Notes under the pieces: model-generated
What the model was told of the DNA's origin: nothing
The model's input: the letters and a program-made list of their open reading frames with translations, nothing else
Databases searched by the model: none
From: a virus
Direction: 5' to 3' (one strand)
Virus record (IMG/VR): IMGVR_UViG_3300017717_000031
Span: 1 to 32,823 of that record
Length of the DNA stretch: 32,823 bases
Shown here: positions 1,942-22,957 of the stretch, piece after piece
Layout: every line of letters begins with the position of its first letter
Numbering within the stretch: position 1 is the stretch's first letter
Position numbers and translations under genes: made by a program

Positions 1942-2007
1942 ATTAAAATATATTTAGTGGACTGCGGTCGTGAGGACAACCAGCACTTTAAATTTTAGGA
2001 GTTAATT

Positions 2008-2082
2008 ATGTGGTCTAAACCTATAATTACAGAAATTTCTGTTGGTCTTGAGATTAACAGTTATGCCTGTGCTGAAAAATAA
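2008..2082 (+). CDS. pqqA: PqqA, precursor peptide of pyrroloquinoline quinone (PQQ)
   Basis: 24-aa peptide (MWSKPIITEISVGLEINSYA, then CAEK). PqqA is the ribosomal peptide whose Glu and Tyr side chains are cross-linked by the radical-SAM enzyme PqqE with the chaperone PqqD; the linked pair is then cut out and matured to PQQ. The defining features are all here: length 23-29 aa, start M-(K)-W-x-K/P-P, a central V-G-L/M-E, and the E-x3-Y pair (Glu15 and Tyr19). The 'GLEINSYACAE' end looks like alphaproteobacterial PqqA. A textbook AGGAG site lies 6 bases upstream of ATG. No pqqB, C, D or E is visible here, so it would act through host enzymes. A strong hairpin starts right after the stop codon, as expected for a highly expressed short gene. 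PQQ serves periplasmic methanol, alcohol and sugar dehydrogenases. Confidence 0.85.
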   Translation: MWSKPIITEISVGLEINSYACAEK

Positions 2083-2108
2083 AGTGATGGGGACTGAGTC
2101 CCCACACT
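2083..2108 (+). terminator. Strong hairpin directly after pqqA (attenuator or mRNA-stabilising)
   Basis: AGTG-A-TGGGGACT-G-AGTCCCCACACT forms 12-bp arms with one bulged A (2087) and a minimal centre at 2096. It begins one base after the pqqA stop. No T-run follows (AAATTTGTGT), so it is not a classical intrinsic terminator. It more likely acts as partial attenuator or 3' end protector for the pqqA message. Its GGGGACT/AGTCCCC stem is the same as that of the terminator at 6195-6226. Confidence 0.6.
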
Positions 2109-2544: not shown

Positions 2545-2743
2545 TATAGATACCTTACAATCAATTCGCCACTATATAAGAAAAGAAATTCAAAAAACAA
2601 AAGACCATATTTGTTATGGTATAGACAAACTTGATCAACTACACTATGCTAAAGGCAAGCTCAACGGATTAGAATCGTTGCTTCAGGATCTTAAAGACCT
2701 GCAAAATAAGGAGAATAGTATAGATGACATTGATCAAACCTAA
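2537..2743 (+). CDS. Small coiled-coil protein, unknown (68 aa)
   Basis: 68 aa, predicted almost wholly alpha-helical, with heptad-like spacing of Leu and Ile ('LDQLHYAKGKLNGLESLLQD'). It overlaps the GroES-like gene by 20 bases (the two frames share 2724-2743), so the pair is probably translated together. A head-assembly accessory role is possible from position only. Confidence 0.6.
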   Translation: MLDIDTLQSIRHYIRKEIQKTKDHICYGIDKLDQLHYAKGKLNGLESLLQDLKDLQNKENSIDDIDQT

Positions 2744-3155
2744 TACTAAATTAGTCACACCTGAAAAAGATGTTGACGAACCCTTAGTTCCAAAGGGTGC
2801 AAAACAAGTGGAAGAATATCTAAAATTATTACCAAAGCCAGTAGGATATAGACTTTTAGTAAGGCCATATCAGCCAAAAGAAAAAACTAAAGGTGGTCTT
2901 TATCTGACGGAAAAAACTCTTGAAACACAACAGCTGACTACAGTAGTTGGTATGGTAGTGAAGATGGGTGACCTTTGTTATAAAGACAAAGAAAAATTTC
3001 CAACTGGACCGTGGTGTAAAGAGGGACAGTTTATTGTTTATGGACGGTATGCTGGCGCTCGATTTAAGACTAAATATGGTGAGCATCGTATTTTAAATGA
3101 TGATGAAATCATAGGAACTATTAACAAACCCGAGGATATCCTCGCATTATTCTAA
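2724..3155 (+). CDS. GroES-like co-chaperonin (Cpn10 fold)
   Basis: 143 aa. After a ~35-residue extension the Cpn10 pattern begins with 'PVGYRLLVRPYQPKEKTKGG', then a mobile-loop region 'LYLTEKTLETQQ', a 'VVGMVVKMGDLCY' strand, and 'GQFIVYGRYAGARFK' followed by the C-terminal 'DDEIIGTI'. Phage co-chaperonins (T4 gp31 is the model) cap the host GroEL ring and enlarge its folding chamber so the capsid protein can fold. The position just before scaffold and capsid genes supports this. It is longer than bacterial GroES (~95 aa) because of the N-terminal extension and a lengthened roof region. No GroEL is present in the window. Confidence 0.8.
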   Translation: MTLIKPNTKLVTPEKDVDEPLVPKGAKQVEEYLKLLPKPVGYRLLVRPYQPKEKTKGGLYLTEKTLETQQLTTVVGMVVKMGDLCYKDKEKFPTGPWCKEGQFIVYGRYAGARFKTKYGEHRILNDDEIIGTINKPEDILALF

Positions 3156-5260: not shown

Positions 5261-6172
5261 ATGGCTATTTCAAGATCACAACTGGTCAAAGAGCTAGAGC
5301 CTGGTTTAAATGCTCTCTTTGGCTTAGAATATAATCGTTACGAAAACGAACATGCAGAAATTTTTGTTTCAGAAGCATCTGATAGAGCTTTCGAAGAAGA
5401 AGTAATGCTAAGTGGTTTCGGTAGTGCTCCAGTTAAAGAAGAAGGTTCAGGGGTCGCATTTGATCAAGCAACCGAATCTTTTACTGCGAGATACACTCAC
5501 GAAACAATCGCTATGGCTTTTGCTATTACTGAGGAAGCAATTGAAGATAATCTGTACGACAGATTAGCTGCAAGATACACAAGAGCATTGGCAAGATCAA
5601 TGGCTAACACTAAGCAAGTAAAAGCTGCAAACGTACTTAATAATGCGTTTAATAGTAGCTTTGCTGGTGGTGACGGCGTTGAACTTTGTTCCACAGCTCA
5701 TTCGTTAGCAACTGGTGGTACATTCGCAAATGAATTATCAACTGCTGCTGACTTATCTGAAACATCACTAGAGCAGTCTCTAATTGATATTGCTGCTTTC
5801 GTTGATGAAAGAGGACTTAAAATTGCAATGCAAGGTGTTAAACTGATTATTCCAAAAGAACTTCAGTTTACTGCTGAAAGAATTTTAAGATCACCTCAGA
5901 GAGTTGGTACTGCGGATAATGACATCAACGCTATGGCTTCTATGGGTATGATCCCACAAGGCTATAGAGTTAATCATTATCTAACAGATACTGATGCTTT
6001 CTTCATCATGACTGATGCTCCTAACGGAATGAAACAATTCGTTAGAGCGCCAATCAAAACTGCAATCGAAGGTGACTTTGATACTGGTAACGTCAGATTT
6101 AAAGCAAGAGAAAGATATTCTTTTGGTTTTTCTGATCCAAGAGGTATCTTTGGTTCACCTGGAGCTGCATAG
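5261..6172 (+). CDS. Major capsid protein (HK97-like fold)
   Basis: 303 aa. The N-terminus 'SRSQLVKELEPGLNALFGLE' is followed by a helix-rich spine segment ('ETIAMAFAITEEAIEDNLYD', 'ALARSMANTKQVKAANVLNN') and 'GGDGVELCSTAHSLATGGTF', a signature of Mu gpT-like and related marine major capsid proteins. The C-terminal part contains 'GVKLIIPKEL', 'TDTDAFFIMTDAPNGMKQFV' and 'RERYSFGFSDPRGIFGS', typical of the A-domain end. It follows the scaffold and decoration genes and is followed by a strong terminator, which fits the most abundant late product. The fold is assigned by resemblance. Confidence 0.85.
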   Translation: MAISRSQLVKELEPGLNALFGLEYNRYENEHAEIFVSEASDRAFEEEVMLSGFGSAPVKEEGSGVAFDQATESFTARYTHETIAMAFAITEEAIEDNLYDRLAARYTRALARSMANTKQVKAANVLNNAFNSSFAGGDGVELCSTAHSLATGGTFANELSTAADLSETSLEQSLIDIAAFVDERGLKIAMQGVKLIIPKELQFTAERILRSPQRVGTADNDINAMASMGMIPQGYRVNHYLTDTDAFFIMTDAPNGMKQFVRAPIKTAIEGDFDTGNVRFKARERYSFGFSDPRGIFGSPGAA

Positions 6173-15501: not shown

Positions 15502-16932
15502 ATGCCTTTAATTCTAGGAGCGAATAGTGTTAGAGGTGCAGCCGTTCACCAAATAGACCAATCAATTAGATTTAATGCTGCTGATAGTGCTTATATGCAA
15601 AGAACTTATGGTGCTGGTGGTAATGTAGATGCTTCTACAATAAGTTTTTGGTTCAAAAGGTCTAAACTTGGGGTTGAAGTTACAATGTTTGGAAGTGGTG
15701 CTAACACAAGCAATACTTTTGATATATTTTTTAAAACTGATGATACATTGTTTATTCAAGATTATGCTGGTGCTTATACTCTTTATTTAGGAACTACTCA
15801 AGTTTTTCGTGACCCATCAGCATGGTATCATCTCGTATTTGCATACGACTCTGCTAATGCAATAGAAACAGAAAGAGCAAGGTTGTATATAAATGGACAA
15901 AGAGTAACTAGTTTTGGTGGAGCATCACCATCACCAAAATACCCTTCTCAGAATGCAGACTCAATTTTAGGCACTAATGTTGCGATTGGTTTTGGTAGGT
16001 ATATATCTCTTGGTTCTAGTAATACAAGTCAATATTTTGATGGTTACCTTGCAGAAATGAATTATGTAAATGGGTTAGCATTAGACCCTAGTTACTTTGG
16101 CGAAACCAATGATAACGGGATTTGGATTCCTAAAGAATATTCTGGTAGTTATGGTACAGGAGGATTTTTTGTTGATGGAAGAGATGCAAGTGATTTGGGT
16201 GATGACGAATCGGGAAGTGGTAATGATTTAACAACAAGTGGACTTGCCTCACATGACCAAATGGCTGACTCACCAACAAATAATTTTTGTGTAATGAATC
16301 CTCTTAATACTCACTCAAGTATTACTTTAAGTAATGGTAATTTACAATCAACTGCCTCAGCATTTACTGGAAGTGGTGCATCAATATTATTACCAAGTAC
16401 AGGAAAATGGTATGCTGAGATTAGATATAATAATGCAAGTGTAGGTGAATATCCAATGGTGGGAATTTATAATACTATTAAAAATTTAAGTACTTCTGGA
16501 TTAAATCCTGGTAACACAAGTGGTGATAAAGATATTGGTTTTGGTGCTGATGGTATTAGACGAGAAAATGCTACTGATACTTCTAGCTGGGGTAATGCTG
16601 TTGGTGATGGAAAAATTGGTGCTTTCGCTATTGATATGGATAATAAAAAGATTTGGTTTGGACATAATAATAGTGGTTCTTTTGTATGGCAAGCTAGTGG
16701 AAATCCATCAGCAGGAAGTAATGAAGCTAATACAATAGCTTTTGCTGATGATGTAATTTTTGGCAATAGTCATTATGGTGGTTCAATAGTATGTTGGAAC
16801 TTTGGACAAGATGGAACTTTTGGTGGAACAGAAACAGCACAAGGTAATGCAGATGGTAATGGAGTGGGTAACTTCTATTATGCACCACCAACAAATTATC
16901 TAGCACTATGTACAAAGAATATAGGGAGTTAA
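15502..16932 (+). CDS. Fibre protein with LamG-like and SPRY-like domains
   Basis: 476 aa. Residues ~12-210 carry a concanavalin A/LamG-like domain: 'IDQSIRFNAADSAYMQRTYG', 'ASTISFWFKRSK', 'AWYHLVFAYDSANA', 'RLYINGQRV' and 'FDGYLAEMNYVNGLAL' are standard elements. From about residue 290 a SPRY-like segment follows: 'STGKWYAEIRYNNA', 'GDGKIGAFAIDMDNKKIWFG' and a Trp-Asn-Phe-Gly end. These domains bind glycans or proteins, so it is a likely receptor-binding protein. The next gene has the same architecture and is clearly related. Confidence 0.7.
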   Translation: MPLILGANSVRGAAVHQIDQSIRFNAADSAYMQRTYGAGGNVDASTISFWFKRSKLGVEVTMFGSGANTSNTFDIFFKTDDTLFIQDYAGAYTLYLGTTQVFRDPSAWYHLVFAYDSANAIETERARLYINGQRVTSFGGASPSPKYPSQNADSILGTNVAIGFGRYISLGSSNTSQYFDGYLAEMNYVNGLALDPSYFGETNDNGIWIPKEYSGSYGTGGFFVDGRDASDLGDDESGSGNDLTTSGLASHDQMADSPTNNFCVMNPLNTHSSITLSNGNLQSTASAFTGSGASILLPSTGKWYAEIRYNNASVGEYPMVGIYNTIKNLSTSGLNPGNTSGDKDIGFGADGIRRENATDTSSWGNAVGDGKIGAFAIDMDNKKIWFGHNNSGSFVWQASGNPSAGSNEANTIAFADDVIFGNSHYGGSIVCWNFGQDGTFGGTETAQGNADGNGVGNFYYAPPTNYLALCTKNIGS

Positions 16933-16933
16933 C

Positions 16934-19348
16934 ATGGCAACACCAACAATACCAAATGGCGAAGAATATTTCTTTCCGATAATCTACGAAGGCAACGGAG
17001 CTGGGCAGAGGGTCGGTAAGTTCGTACCTTTTACAGACAATGGTACGATTGCTAATAGTTGTATATTTAATGATGATGATAGTCCAGAATTGAGTAGAAC
17101 ACCATCTTCAGAAACAAACAGAGATACATTCACTTTAAGTTTTTGGATAAAAAGATGTAATATAGGATCATTACAATTAATATTTCAACATGGTGCAAAT
17201 GCTAACAATTGTACTCAGTTTAGTTTTGATTCAAGTGATAGATTACAATACCAACAAGTTGATGGAGGAAGTAATACTGATTCTCTTGTAACAAACAGAA
17301 CTTTTGAAGATACCTCTAAATTTTATCATATTCTTTTGGCTGTAGACACAACTCAAGCAACCGAAGCCAACAGAGTAAGAATGTATGTTGATGGTGATGA
17401 AATAACTTCATGGAGTACAGCTAATTATCCAACTCAAAATACAGATACAGATGTGAATACTACAACAGAGTTCAGTATTGGTAGACAATTAAGTGGCACA
17501 GCGTACTCACCAGATTGTTATTTTGCTGAAATGAACTTTGTAGACGGAACACAACATACACCTTCAACCTTTGGCATCACCGATACAAGCACAAATCGCT
17601 GGATTCCAAAAACATTAACTGGTATTACTTATGGCACTAATGGATTTAGATTACAGTTTCAAGATAGTTCATCACTCGGAGATGACACGAGTGGAAATAC
17701 AAATGATTTCACAGCCACAAATTTAGCTAGTACAGATCAGACCACCAGTAGCCCTACTCAAAACTTTAACACATTTGCTTCTTTTAATTCTGGCACATCT
17801 GCAACTGATGGTAATTTAATAGTTAGCACAGGAACAACAAATGGTGCTGCTCAAGCAGTAGCACAATCTGGGTTTGGTGTGGCAACTGGTAAATGGTATT
17901 GGGAAGTAAAAATCACAACCACTGGTGCTGGATTATGGGGTTGGAAAGATGACGGAAGTGCTGGAGGTTCACAAGCTAGTACTAGTGGCACACAAGGAGG
18001 TGGTAATTTTTCTGGGGCATTATCAACAGGTGCATCTGGACAATATTCTGCTGGGTCTTGGTTTATTGACCACAGATATACTGAAGAGGTAAATTACACA
18101 ACAGTTTCAACTAATGATGTTTTAATGTTTGCAATGGATTTAGATAGTGGCAAAGGGTATTGTGGTAAGAACGGCACTTGGTTTAATAGTGCTAATCCAG
18201 CAAATGGCACAGGAGCAATTGGTGGGTGTCATAGAGCAAATGGAATAAATAAATTCTATCCTTGTGCTGTTAGGTCTGATTCAAATAGTGTAGGAGAGTT
18301 TAATTTTGGTCAAAAAAGTTTTGCACATACTCCACCAACTGGTTTTTCTACCTTACAACAGGACAACCTACCAGAAACAGCTAAAGGCATAAGTGGATTA
18401 GTGTGGACGAAGAACAGAGATGCTGCTGACAATCACCAATTATACGATAGTTCAAGAGGTAAACAATTAGTTTTAGCATCTAATACTGATGGTATAGAGT
18501 CAACAGTTGTAGATGGTTTACAAAAGTTTTTAAAAGGTGGTCAGCAAATTGAAGATAGTGATGCAATCAATACAGCTGGTGAATCTTTTGTAAGCTGGAA
18601 CTGGGTAGCAAATGGTGGTACTACTGCAAGTAATACTGATGGTTCAATTGCCTCTACTGTCCAAGCTAATACAACTGCTGGCTTTTCAATCGTAAAATAT
18701 GTTGGAACGGGTGCTAATGCTACAGTTGGACATGGGTTATCTTCAGCACCAGAGTGGGTTATGACACGGATTCGTAATGCTGGTTCAGTTGCTGGTTTTG
18801 CTGTAGGTTGTACAGCAGACCCTAGTGGATTCAATAACTTTTTATATTTAAATGAAACAACTGCAAGTACAGCAAGTGCGGCAACATGGAATAATACAGC
18901 ACCAACAAATAGTGTATTTAGTGTTGGAACTTCAGAAATAGGAAATTATAATGGTTATAATATGTTAGCTTATTGTTGGCATAGTGTAGATGGCTTTAGT
19001 AAAATTGGTTTCTTCAAGGGCAACGGCAGTACAGATGGGCCGATGATTTACACAGGATTCCGACCAGCTTGGTTACTAATTAAACGGACAGATTCTAGCA
19101 CTGGTGGTAATTGGTCAATAATTGATAGTACCAGATACCCAGCAAATCCAATCGGTCCACCATTACTTGCTGATAGTACAGATGCAGAATCTGGTCTTTC
19201 ATCAATAACTATGGATTTATTATCAAATGGTTTTAAAATTAGAAACACTTTAAACTCCAATAATAATTCTAGTGGAACTTATATTTATATGGCATTTGCC
19301 TCTAATCCATTCGTTGGGGACGGAACCAGTCCTGTGACTGCGAGGTGA
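16934..19348 (+). CDS. Large fibre protein, LamG-like, SPRY-like and C-terminal fibre repeats
   Basis: 804 aa. After a ~30-residue N-terminal part the LamG-like domain spans ~residues 40-215 ('FTLSFWIKRC', 'FYHILLAVDTTQ', 'RMYVDGDEI', 'CYFAEMNFVDG'). A SPRY-like domain follows at ~320-470 ('ATGKWYWEVKI', 'MFAMDLDSGKGYCGKNGTW'). The last ~320 residues contain two related units with 'G.vw.Kn' and 'NTDGSIASTVQANTTAGFSI VKYVGTGA', 'GHGLSSAPEWVMTRIR', 'GPMIYTGFRPAWLLIKRTDS'. This H-G-L-x-x-x-P-x-x-x/ W-N-W pattern is a fibre tip domain seen in many marine phages. It is a longer paralogue of the preceding protein and probably the main adhesin. Confidence 0.7.
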   Translation: MATPTIPNGEEYFFPIIYEGNGAGQRVGKFVPFTDNGTIANSCIFNDDDSPELSRTPSSETNRDTFTLSFWIKRCNIGSLQLIFQHGANANNCTQFSFDSSDRLQYQQVDGGSNTDSLVTNRTFEDTSKFYHILLAVDTTQATEANRVRMYVDGDEITSWSTANYPTQNTDTDVNTTTEFSIGRQLSGTAYSPDCYFAEMNFVDGTQHTPSTFGITDTSTNRWIPKTLTGITYGTNGFRLQFQDSSSLGDDTSGNTNDFTATNLASTDQTTSSPTQNFNTFASFNSGTSATDGNLIVSTGTTNGAAQAVAQSGFGVATGKWYWEVKITTTGAGLWGWKDDGSAGGSQASTSGTQGGGNFSGALSTGASGQYSAGSWFIDHRYTEEVNYTTVSTNDVLMFAMDLDSGKGYCGKNGTWFNSANPANGTGAIGGCHRANGINKFYPCAVRSDSNSVGEFNFGQKSFAHTPPTGFSTLQQDNLPETAKGISGLVWTKNRDAADNHQLYDSSRGKQLVLASNTDGIESTVVDGLQKFLKGGQQIEDSDAINTAGESFVSWNWVANGGTTASNTDGSIASTVQANTTAGFSIVKYVGTGANATVGHGLSSAPEWVMTRIRNAGSVAGFAVGCTADPSGFNNFLYLNETTASTASAATWNNTAPTNSVFSVGTSEIGNYNGYNMLAYCWHSVDGFSKIGFFKGNGSTDGPMIYTGFRPAWLLIKRTDSSTGGNWSIIDSTRYPANPIGPPLLADSTDAESGLSSITMDLLSNGFKIRNTLNSNNNSSGTYIYMAFASNPFVGDGTSPVTAR

Positions 19349-21845: not shown

Positions 21846-22031
21846 ATGAAAGTAATACACTGCGAATCGAAAACTAAGATTACCAACAAAAGAACTGGAA
21901 AAGTATATGCATCAGAAAATGAAGCAAAGTTCGATGTCAAAGATCAGTTGTCTGCGACAACTGAAGAAGAGATTCAAAGGGACGTTACAATTATCGTACC
22001 GCAGTTGGATATTGAAGGAGGAACAGATTGA
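21846..22031 (+). CDS. Small conserved phage protein (61 aa), unknown
   Basis: 61 aa: 'MKVIHCESKTKITNKRTGKV YASENEAKFDV' followed by 'EEEIQRDVTIIVPQLDI'. This pairing is typical of a small protein found near tail genes of many marine phages. It ends within the ribosome site and start of the glycosyltransferase gene (overlap 22028-22031), so the two are probably translated together. Function unknown. Confidence 0.6.
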   Translation: MKVIHCESKTKITNKRTGKVYASENEAKFDVKDQLSATTEEEIQRDVTIIVPQLDIEGGTD

Positions 22032-22957
22032 ATCCTCTAGGGGGAACTGAACTTCAACATAATTTTTTAATCGACAATGTTAAAAAAGAATTGTTGGAAG
22101 GTGTTCAAATTTGTTTATCTGTTCCTGAAAAAACACCTTTGTCTAAAGATAAAGTAAATATTCTGTGGCAGAAAAATGCACCAGATCAACCTAATATTAA
22201 ACCTTGGTTTGATGATAAAAATAATCACACTAAATATGATTGGTATGTATTTAATTCACATTGGAATTACGAAGAATATAGGAAGTGTTTTAATATACCA
22301 ACCGACAGATGTCATGTTATTAAAAATGGTGTGACAAGTTTTCCCAAACCAAGCACTTACAATAAAGGGGATCGTCTTAGAATTATACATCATAATACAC
22401 CTTGGCGTGGTTTAAATGTTCTGTTAGGAGCTATGCAGTATCTAGAGGGTGAGAATATTGAGCTTGATGTATATAGTAGTTGTGAAGTTTATGGAGATGA
22501 GTTTAAAGAAGATAATGATCATAATTACCAAGAGTTATATGATCAAGCAAAAGAGTTACCAAATGTTAATTATATTGGATATAGACCAAATGACTTTATA
22601 TTAAGTAAATTACCAAACTATCATTTATATGTTTATCCAAGTATTTGGGAAGAAACATCATGCATCTCTTTGTTAGAGTCTATGGCTGCTGGCTTGTACT
22701 GTGTTGTGACTAATTATGGTGCTTTATATGAAACAGGATCCGAGTTTCCTATATACATCAACTATGAAACAAATTTTAATAATCTTGCTTTTCAATTTGC
22801 AGAAGCTATCAAAGTAGCACGGGACACGCTCCACGAACCTATGATAAGAGAACATTTATCTTTACAACAAGATTTTGTAAAAAGGTTTTATTGTTGGGAA
22901 AAAAAGGCATTTGAATGGACAAATTTTCTTACAGGTGTTTTAGATGCAAAACAATAA
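22028..22957 (+). CDS. Glycosyltransferase, GT-B fold (group 1/GT4-like)
   Basis: 309 aa from a TTG start that overlaps the upstream TGA (ATTGA); GGAGG lies 7 bases upstream, which decides this start. The N-terminal 'GGTELQHNFL' is the glycine loop of group 1 enzymes. 'YVFNSHWNYEEYRKCF' and 'HVIKNGV' mark the middle of the GT-B fold, and 'RIIHHNTPWRGLNVLLGAM' the start of the donor domain. 'YPSIWEETSCISLLESMAAG' contains the E-x7-E donor-binding motif. It is shorter than bacterial members (350-400 aa) because of a brief N-terminal domain. It probably transfers a sugar to a virion protein or host surface glycan. Confidence 0.8.
   Translation: MNPLGGTELQHNFLIDNVKKELLEGVQICLSVPEKTPLSKDKVNILWQKNAPDQPNIKPWFDDKNNHTKYDWYVFNSHWNYEEYRKCFNIPTDRCHVIKNGVTSFPKPSTYNKGDRLRIIHHNTPWRGLNVLLGAMQYLEGENIELDVYSSCEVYGDEFKEDNDHNYQELYDQAKELPNVNYIGYRPNDFILSKLPNYHLYVYPSIWEETSCISLLESMAAGLYCVVTNYGALYETGSEFPIYINYETNFNNLAFQFAEAIKVARDTLHEPMIREHLSLQQDFVKRFYCWEKKAFEWTNFLTGVLDAKQ

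Follow-up and report, generated by a model that had tools for sequence, protein, structure and literature searches.

Could a frame of only 24 codons in a marine phage encode a genuine PqqA, the precursor peptide of PQQ, and what would a phage gain by carrying this substrate without the enzymes that process it? The window, by which we mean the whole 32,823-nt stretch of viral DNA that was analyzed, contains such a frame at 2008–2082 on the + strand, with the product MWSKPIITEISVGLEINSYACAEK. The earlier note on this DNA had read it as pqqA from the letters alone. In the PF08042 search that the note proposed, the peptide scored 33.3 bits (curated cut-off 21.1; E 4.6e-8), and against TIGR02107 of NCBIfam it scored 39.1 bits (cut-off 20; E 4.6e-10), so that the reading holds above both curated cut-offs. 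The peptide contains Glu15-x3-Tyr19, the backbone of PQQ, and is like the PqqA family in sequence, length, Glu-x3-Tyr, and scores; PHROGs held no family matching it. Furthermore, a degenerate PqqA DNA pattern matched once in the 32.8-kb window (at 2008–2082) and not at all in 100 dinucleotide shuffles. The profile scores and the Glu/Tyr spacing indicate that the window peptide is a member of the PqqA family. The good ribosome site described earlier is there as well: a Shine-Dalgarno AGGAG at 1997–2001 (+ strand), with the ATG 6 nt downstream. The hairpin described after the stop stands in part, as a stem-loop is present at 2087–2105 (+ strand) and has the form of an intrinsic terminator in close relatives, but in the window its + strand tail is T-poor and thus weak as a terminator.

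Capsid homology and gene order identify the window as a marine HTVC023P-type podovirus, and pqqA lies in the late region, where the note had placed it. The major capsid protein (5261–6172, + strand; phrog_371) and its counterpart in Pelagibacter phage HTVC023P are 81.6% identical, and GroES, the endolysin, and their adjacent genes are consistent with the same assignment. Upstream of pqqA lies a gene of an unknown phage family, phrog_2524 (1573–1941, + strand), which is a conserved neighbor of pqqA in the window group; downstream lies the co-chaperonin gene GroES (2724–3155, + strand; phrog_3188). HTVC023P-type pelagiphages have the same capsid, GroES, and gene order, but, unlike the window, HTVC023P, HTVC027P, 023Pt_psg01, and DSL-LC04 have no pqqA in the corresponding stretch, and neither has CRP-902. 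In a quick tree built from 56 capsid rows, the presence of pqqA changes at least four times within the capsid family, two of the changes being forced by well supported branches; L102 and L345 are scored there as lacking pqqA only because their copy sits farther off. No tRNA gene was found in the window.

How widely is the gene distributed? At least 120 IMG/VR loci match the degenerate PqqA pattern. Among the matches listed, all are short PqqA-like ORFs; they come from several unrelated phage lineages and represent two main allele classes, GLEIN[SC]Y and [F/L]GFEVTMY. Clustering by gene sharing (single linkage, with fragments included) gave at least seven groups of more than one member, besides singletons. 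Group representatives encode phage portal, terminase, baseplate, tail, and replication genes. An SD-like 4-mer precedes the start of 126 of 128 phage pqqA genes, compared with 17.8% of all ATGs. pqqA is carried by many unrelated viruses of methanol-using bacteria.

Isolated phages are among them. Using the GFEVTMY allele as the tblastn query, we found pqqA in Venkman, P19250A, MEP301, MEP401, MEP402, and four Melnitz records (E 2e-7 to 5e-4), the known hosts of which are methylotrophic Methylophilales; the window peptide and the GLEINCY allele gave no match in tblastn against isolated phages. The isolates counted here are the methylotroph phages matched by the GFEVTMY query (L326, L327, L328, L329, and L330 among our loci); the taxonomy lists further methylotroph phages by name. 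Like the window, they have a stand-alone, unannotated pqqA with a ribosome site; they differ from it in their [F/L]GFEVTMY alleles, which belong to another host class, and in lacking the R1 leader described below. In the isolate regions examined, any feature overlapping pqqA is on the opposite strand, and the complete annotations of P19250A and MEP301 contain no pqq gene. The papers on MEP401/402, MEP301, and Venkman do not mention PQQ or pqq, and in the Melnitz paper PQQ appears solely as a medium component. The suspicion that gene callers overlook the gene was thus well founded, as it is unannotated in all isolated methylotroph phages checked. Some 24 codons evade standard gene calling and, consequently, a host-metabolism gene present in all matched isolates went unnamed in their papers; the isolate annotations should gain pqqA.

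Beyond what the earlier note had described, the locus contains a predicted sigma-70-like promoter (1922–1949) and a conserved structured RNA leader (1956–1987, + strand). The leader is a 32-nt imperfect hairpin that was first seen in an alignment of the window's relatives. Stem P1 pairs 1956–1959 with 1984–1987, P2 pairs 1962–1964 with 1981–1983, and P3 pairs 1967–1969 with 1975–1977; the unpaired parts are a GA bulge and an internal loop in which CG (1965–1966) faces AAC (1978–1980). A pattern for the hairpin alone retrieved 54 viral stretches, 48 of them new, and 47 of these 48 have pqqA 21–23 nt downstream; in the remaining one, the contig end falls inside pqqA. Two looser patterns added 72 loci, of which 51 have pqqA, 1 is cut within it, and 20 are GC-rich and without it; these 20 look like chance matches within coding DNA. 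Low-GC loci contain 104 copies of the leader, and after every one of them the first SD-preceded start codon opens PqqA (four of the ORFs end at a contig boundary). The orientation of the leader is fixed, and its distance to the start codon is 21–42 nt.

Covariation in the leader is strong. Across 29 distinct sequences, 96.2% of the cells are paired, compared with 86% in shuffles; both sides change in 6 of the 10 pairs, and the covariation score, which kinship of the sequences can inflate, was reached by none of 500 shuffles. When the partner columns were slid by one to three positions, the covariation was lost. P1, P2, and P3 each vary on both sides, and RNAalifold gives the same fold as our alignment, which uses one fixed structure and scores two rows with a one-base bulge as unpaired in P1. 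G7 of the bulge never varies, nor do CG and AAC in the internal loop. The stretch 1942–2125 folds better than its shuffles (z −3.4), and the window leader scores 50.7 bits against the covariance model R1, which matches 11 of 51 phage records, once each. A comparison with 4227 Rfam models gave no match, only sub-threshold chance hits. R1 was absent from the tested methylotroph phages, GLEINCY-GroES phages, and host pqqA loci, and a leader-like pattern was no more frequent in 385 alphaproteobacterial genomes than its reversed control. R1 matches in G287, which are antisense in a GC-rich coding region, were judged to be chance. In MQW/MEW-type phages (L088/G002), an extra small stem (AGTACA...TGTACT) lies just 5′ of the leader.

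Where would the transcript begin? The predicted promoter, TTGCCA-N16-TAAAAT (+ strand), lies inside the upstream gene, at its 3′ end, and matches 10 of 12 consensus positions, but the region has 12 promoter-like sites compared with 6.8 in shuffles, so the match carries little weight alone. Many relatives have the same hexamers equally far from the leader, the −10 box ending 12 nt ahead of the C of CUGCG in many of them, and the relatives match the consensus at a mean of 8.6 of 12 positions, compared with 7.0 for random stretches. Transcription is predicted to start at or near the first base of the leader (about P1), in which case a short pqqA transcript would open with the leader. It would close, in L007 and L008, with a stem that carries a T run.

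Is the peptide itself maintained by selection? Search patterns that fix PqqA residues bias pN/pS, and we therefore used the collection obtained through the leader, in which no PqqA query was involved. In the MWSKP group, to which the window belongs, 16 distinct coding sequences gave a pS of 0.336 and a pN of 0.0114 (ratio 0.034); for 40 coding sequences from all groups, pN/pS was 0.184. The Glu and Tyr are invariant in every complete copy of this set, which confirms the conservation in related phages on which the earlier reading depended. The peptide is under purifying selection.

None of 50 pqqA-bearing phage records, many of them fragments, had a PqqE above the cut-off in the profile search, and a HIMB59-type PqqE used as the query found no close relative in IMG/VR; the claim that the phage carries the substrate peptide only is thereby upheld. 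Radical-SAM-like matches in G041 were rejected as PqqE, being far under its cut-off. Which host could provide the enzymes? The closest bacterial peptides are those of marine alphaproteobacteria, the commonest being MAWTKPMISEISVGLEINSYACAEK. In the HIMB59-type family (including the HIMB59-named MAG MED-G10), PqqA was found in 31 of 32 genomes at 1–5 copies each, while PqqE passed its cut-off in 21 of the 32 and an MDH-type PQQ dehydrogenase did so in 20; the nearest solved structure to the latter by sequence is the lanthanide-dependent XoxF. G080 of this family includes a window-type phage contig with a capsid 73–74% identical, the available part of which is without pqqA. These circumstantial links point to HIMB59-type alphaproteobacteria as the likely host. 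Of the host PQQ machinery that the note had assumed, this family has PqqE and a XoxF-like PQQ enzyme, but we infer, rather than prove, that these bacteria are the host. Several stand-alone pqqA copies occur per streamlined HIMB59-type genome (e.g., G070:C19 309–527, G055:C20, and G081:C2), and two copies in G070 are on opposite strands.

The pqqA–leader pair is also found in phages that have little else in common. At E 1e-5, G002 (60 kb), G030, and G004 have no protein other than PqqA in common with the window, whereas G045 shares PqqA and the endolysin, and G038 shares 31 proteins. Since the first three have no other common protein, the comparison indicates that pqqA and the leader moved between unrelated phages, or were gained together more than once. 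One R1 match (E 2e-11; L480 1502–1540, − strand) was found in the single-cell genome AG-896-A16 (G062), downstream of an RNA pseudouridine synthase gene and directly 5′ of a sigma-70-family gene, with a strong promoter. The sigma-70-family gene is most likely rpoH, and among the family's 28 rpoH loci this is the only one with the leader, the other 27 lacking it.

Why, then, carry the peptide alone? PqqA is consumed one-for-one in PQQ synthesis, whereas PqqB–E act repeatedly. If host expression drops in infection, PqqA would run out first, and it would therefore be economical to carry pqqA alone. We consider it probable that the phage has a genuine pqqA in the form of an autonomous cassette that supplies the consumable substrate of host PQQ synthesis. 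In such a cassette, a promoter of its own and the structured 5′ leader would precede a strong ribosome site and the 24-codon gene, and a hairpin resembling a terminator would follow. In the infected cell, phage-made PqqA would be processed to PQQ by host PqqB–E, and the PQQ would serve the host XoxF-like PQQ-dependent methanol dehydrogenase, so that respiration is sustained while host gene expression fails; here we infer the host, the expression, the processing by PqqD/PqqE, the PQQ gain, and the role of the leader. The raised PQQ flux suggested by the earlier note would be the outcome. In acetic acid bacteria, overexpression of pqqA or pqqAB increases PQQ (PMC7936290, PMC8102297), which supports a modest effect of precursor supply. 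However, the increase was 29% with pqqAB and about eightfold with the whole operon (PMC7936290), so that the chief limit may lie elsewhere than in PqqA. Counted against the supply reading are also the several pqqA copies that the hosts already have, the lack of pqqA in HTVC023P and HTVC027P, and its patchiness within the capsid family.

Could the peptide instead hinder the host? As a decoy, it would occupy PqqD or PqqE, slowing host PQQ synthesis or freeing radical-SAM capacity. The substrate is carried alone and a small peptide could titrate PqqD, but a decoy would benefit from losing the reactive Glu or Tyr, whereas both are invariant under strong purifying selection, and the allele classes resemble those of plausible hosts. 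We regard this version of the "hijack" raised in the note as unlikely, given how strictly the two substrate residues are conserved. The leader–pqqA transcript might also act mainly as a regulatory RNA or sponge, with the peptide secondary, in keeping with the strong leader structure and the copy before a different gene, rpoH. Yet many phages have pqqA without the leader, and synonymous sites are free to vary while the peptide is fixed, which makes an RNA agent distinctly unlikely. Contamination of the viral contigs by host DNA, or a transferred gene that is merely neutral, is a highly improbable source of the signal overall and is refuted for the window group: L202, L179, L203, and L199 may be host flanks rather than phage, and "Acinetobacter phage MD-2021a", rejected as a case of phage pqqA, is a plain host pqqABCDE contig that serves as a control, but complete isolate genomes have pqqA, the flanking genes are those of phages, and selection is purifying.

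With substrate supply as the preferred role of the peptide, what would the leader do? We lean toward an undescribed family of cis-acting RNAs that would control phage pqqA at the 5′ end of the transcript during infection, spread with pqqA among unrelated phages, and now also stand before host rpoH. Its role would most likely be in mRNA stability or translation control at that end. A riboswitch sensing PQQ or a metabolite is a much less likely form of this RNA and, in our view, quite doubtful; a strictly PQQ-specific sensor is disfavored because the leader also precedes rpoH. A DNA site, either for recombination or as a protein-binding inverted repeat, would fit the palindromic sequence and its occurrence in unrelated phages, which implies that the leader or the cassette is mobile. 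The fixed orientation 21–42 nt ahead of a start codon, the tolerance of G-U pairs, and the invariance of the bases left unpaired on either strand of the asymmetric loop nevertheless make it improbable.

Phage pqqA as an idea is already on record and is not new. In VP_266, a methylotroph phage from Lake Baikal, PqqA was reported to be encoded along with methanol dehydrogenase (PMC7678222), and a list of AMGs in reservoir sediments includes pqqA (PMC13188868). The open-access literature yielded no report of the leader, nor of how widely isolated methylotroph phages carry pqqA. VP_266, a Methylophilaceae phage, has a phage-borne pqqA with a proposed support of methanol oxidation, as here, but it is T4-like, comes from fresh water, and has a methanol dehydrogenase, whereas the window is a marine podovirus in which no such gene was noted; the window has the structured leader, and a different PqqA allele class is expected. 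Compared with the typical PqqA family, the window gene is phage-borne, has its own leader, and belongs to phage records without PqqE. Like phage morons and auxiliary metabolic genes, it is dispensable for the virion and patchy, and its predicted promoter and terminator-like stem-loop would make it a transcription unit of its own, but it provides a consumable precursor peptide instead of an enzyme. The distribution suggests that phages of abundant methanol-oxidizing marine bacteria commonly maintain host PQQ supply, for which providing the consumed substrate would be the cheapest route. The leader adds an RNA element unmatched by any Rfam model, and the isolated phage–host pairs make the pqqA claim directly testable.

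Several minor observations accompany these results. L209 is a phage contig by gene order, yet it is binned in a Maricaulis MAG; L247, binned in a MAG that is probably Flavobacteriaceae, has a phage-like leader and pqqA and looks like phage. Two adjacent long genes of the window (15502–16932 and 16934–19348), probably encoding tail proteins, are 42–45% identical to those of the near relative G038, unlike most structural genes, which are 80–99% alike between the two. The gene at 22028–22957 encodes a glycosyltransferase of the phage moron family phrog_2170, and the next gene belongs to the unknown family phrog_1574. Finally, TAATGATT is enriched upstream of GFEVTMY-class pqqA (11 of 53 stretches, compared with 0.55 expected), about 63–92 nt before the start (e.g., L126, L131, L170, L327, L328, and L330), in unrelated phages including isolates; it is a different regulatory signal, perhaps a host promoter site.
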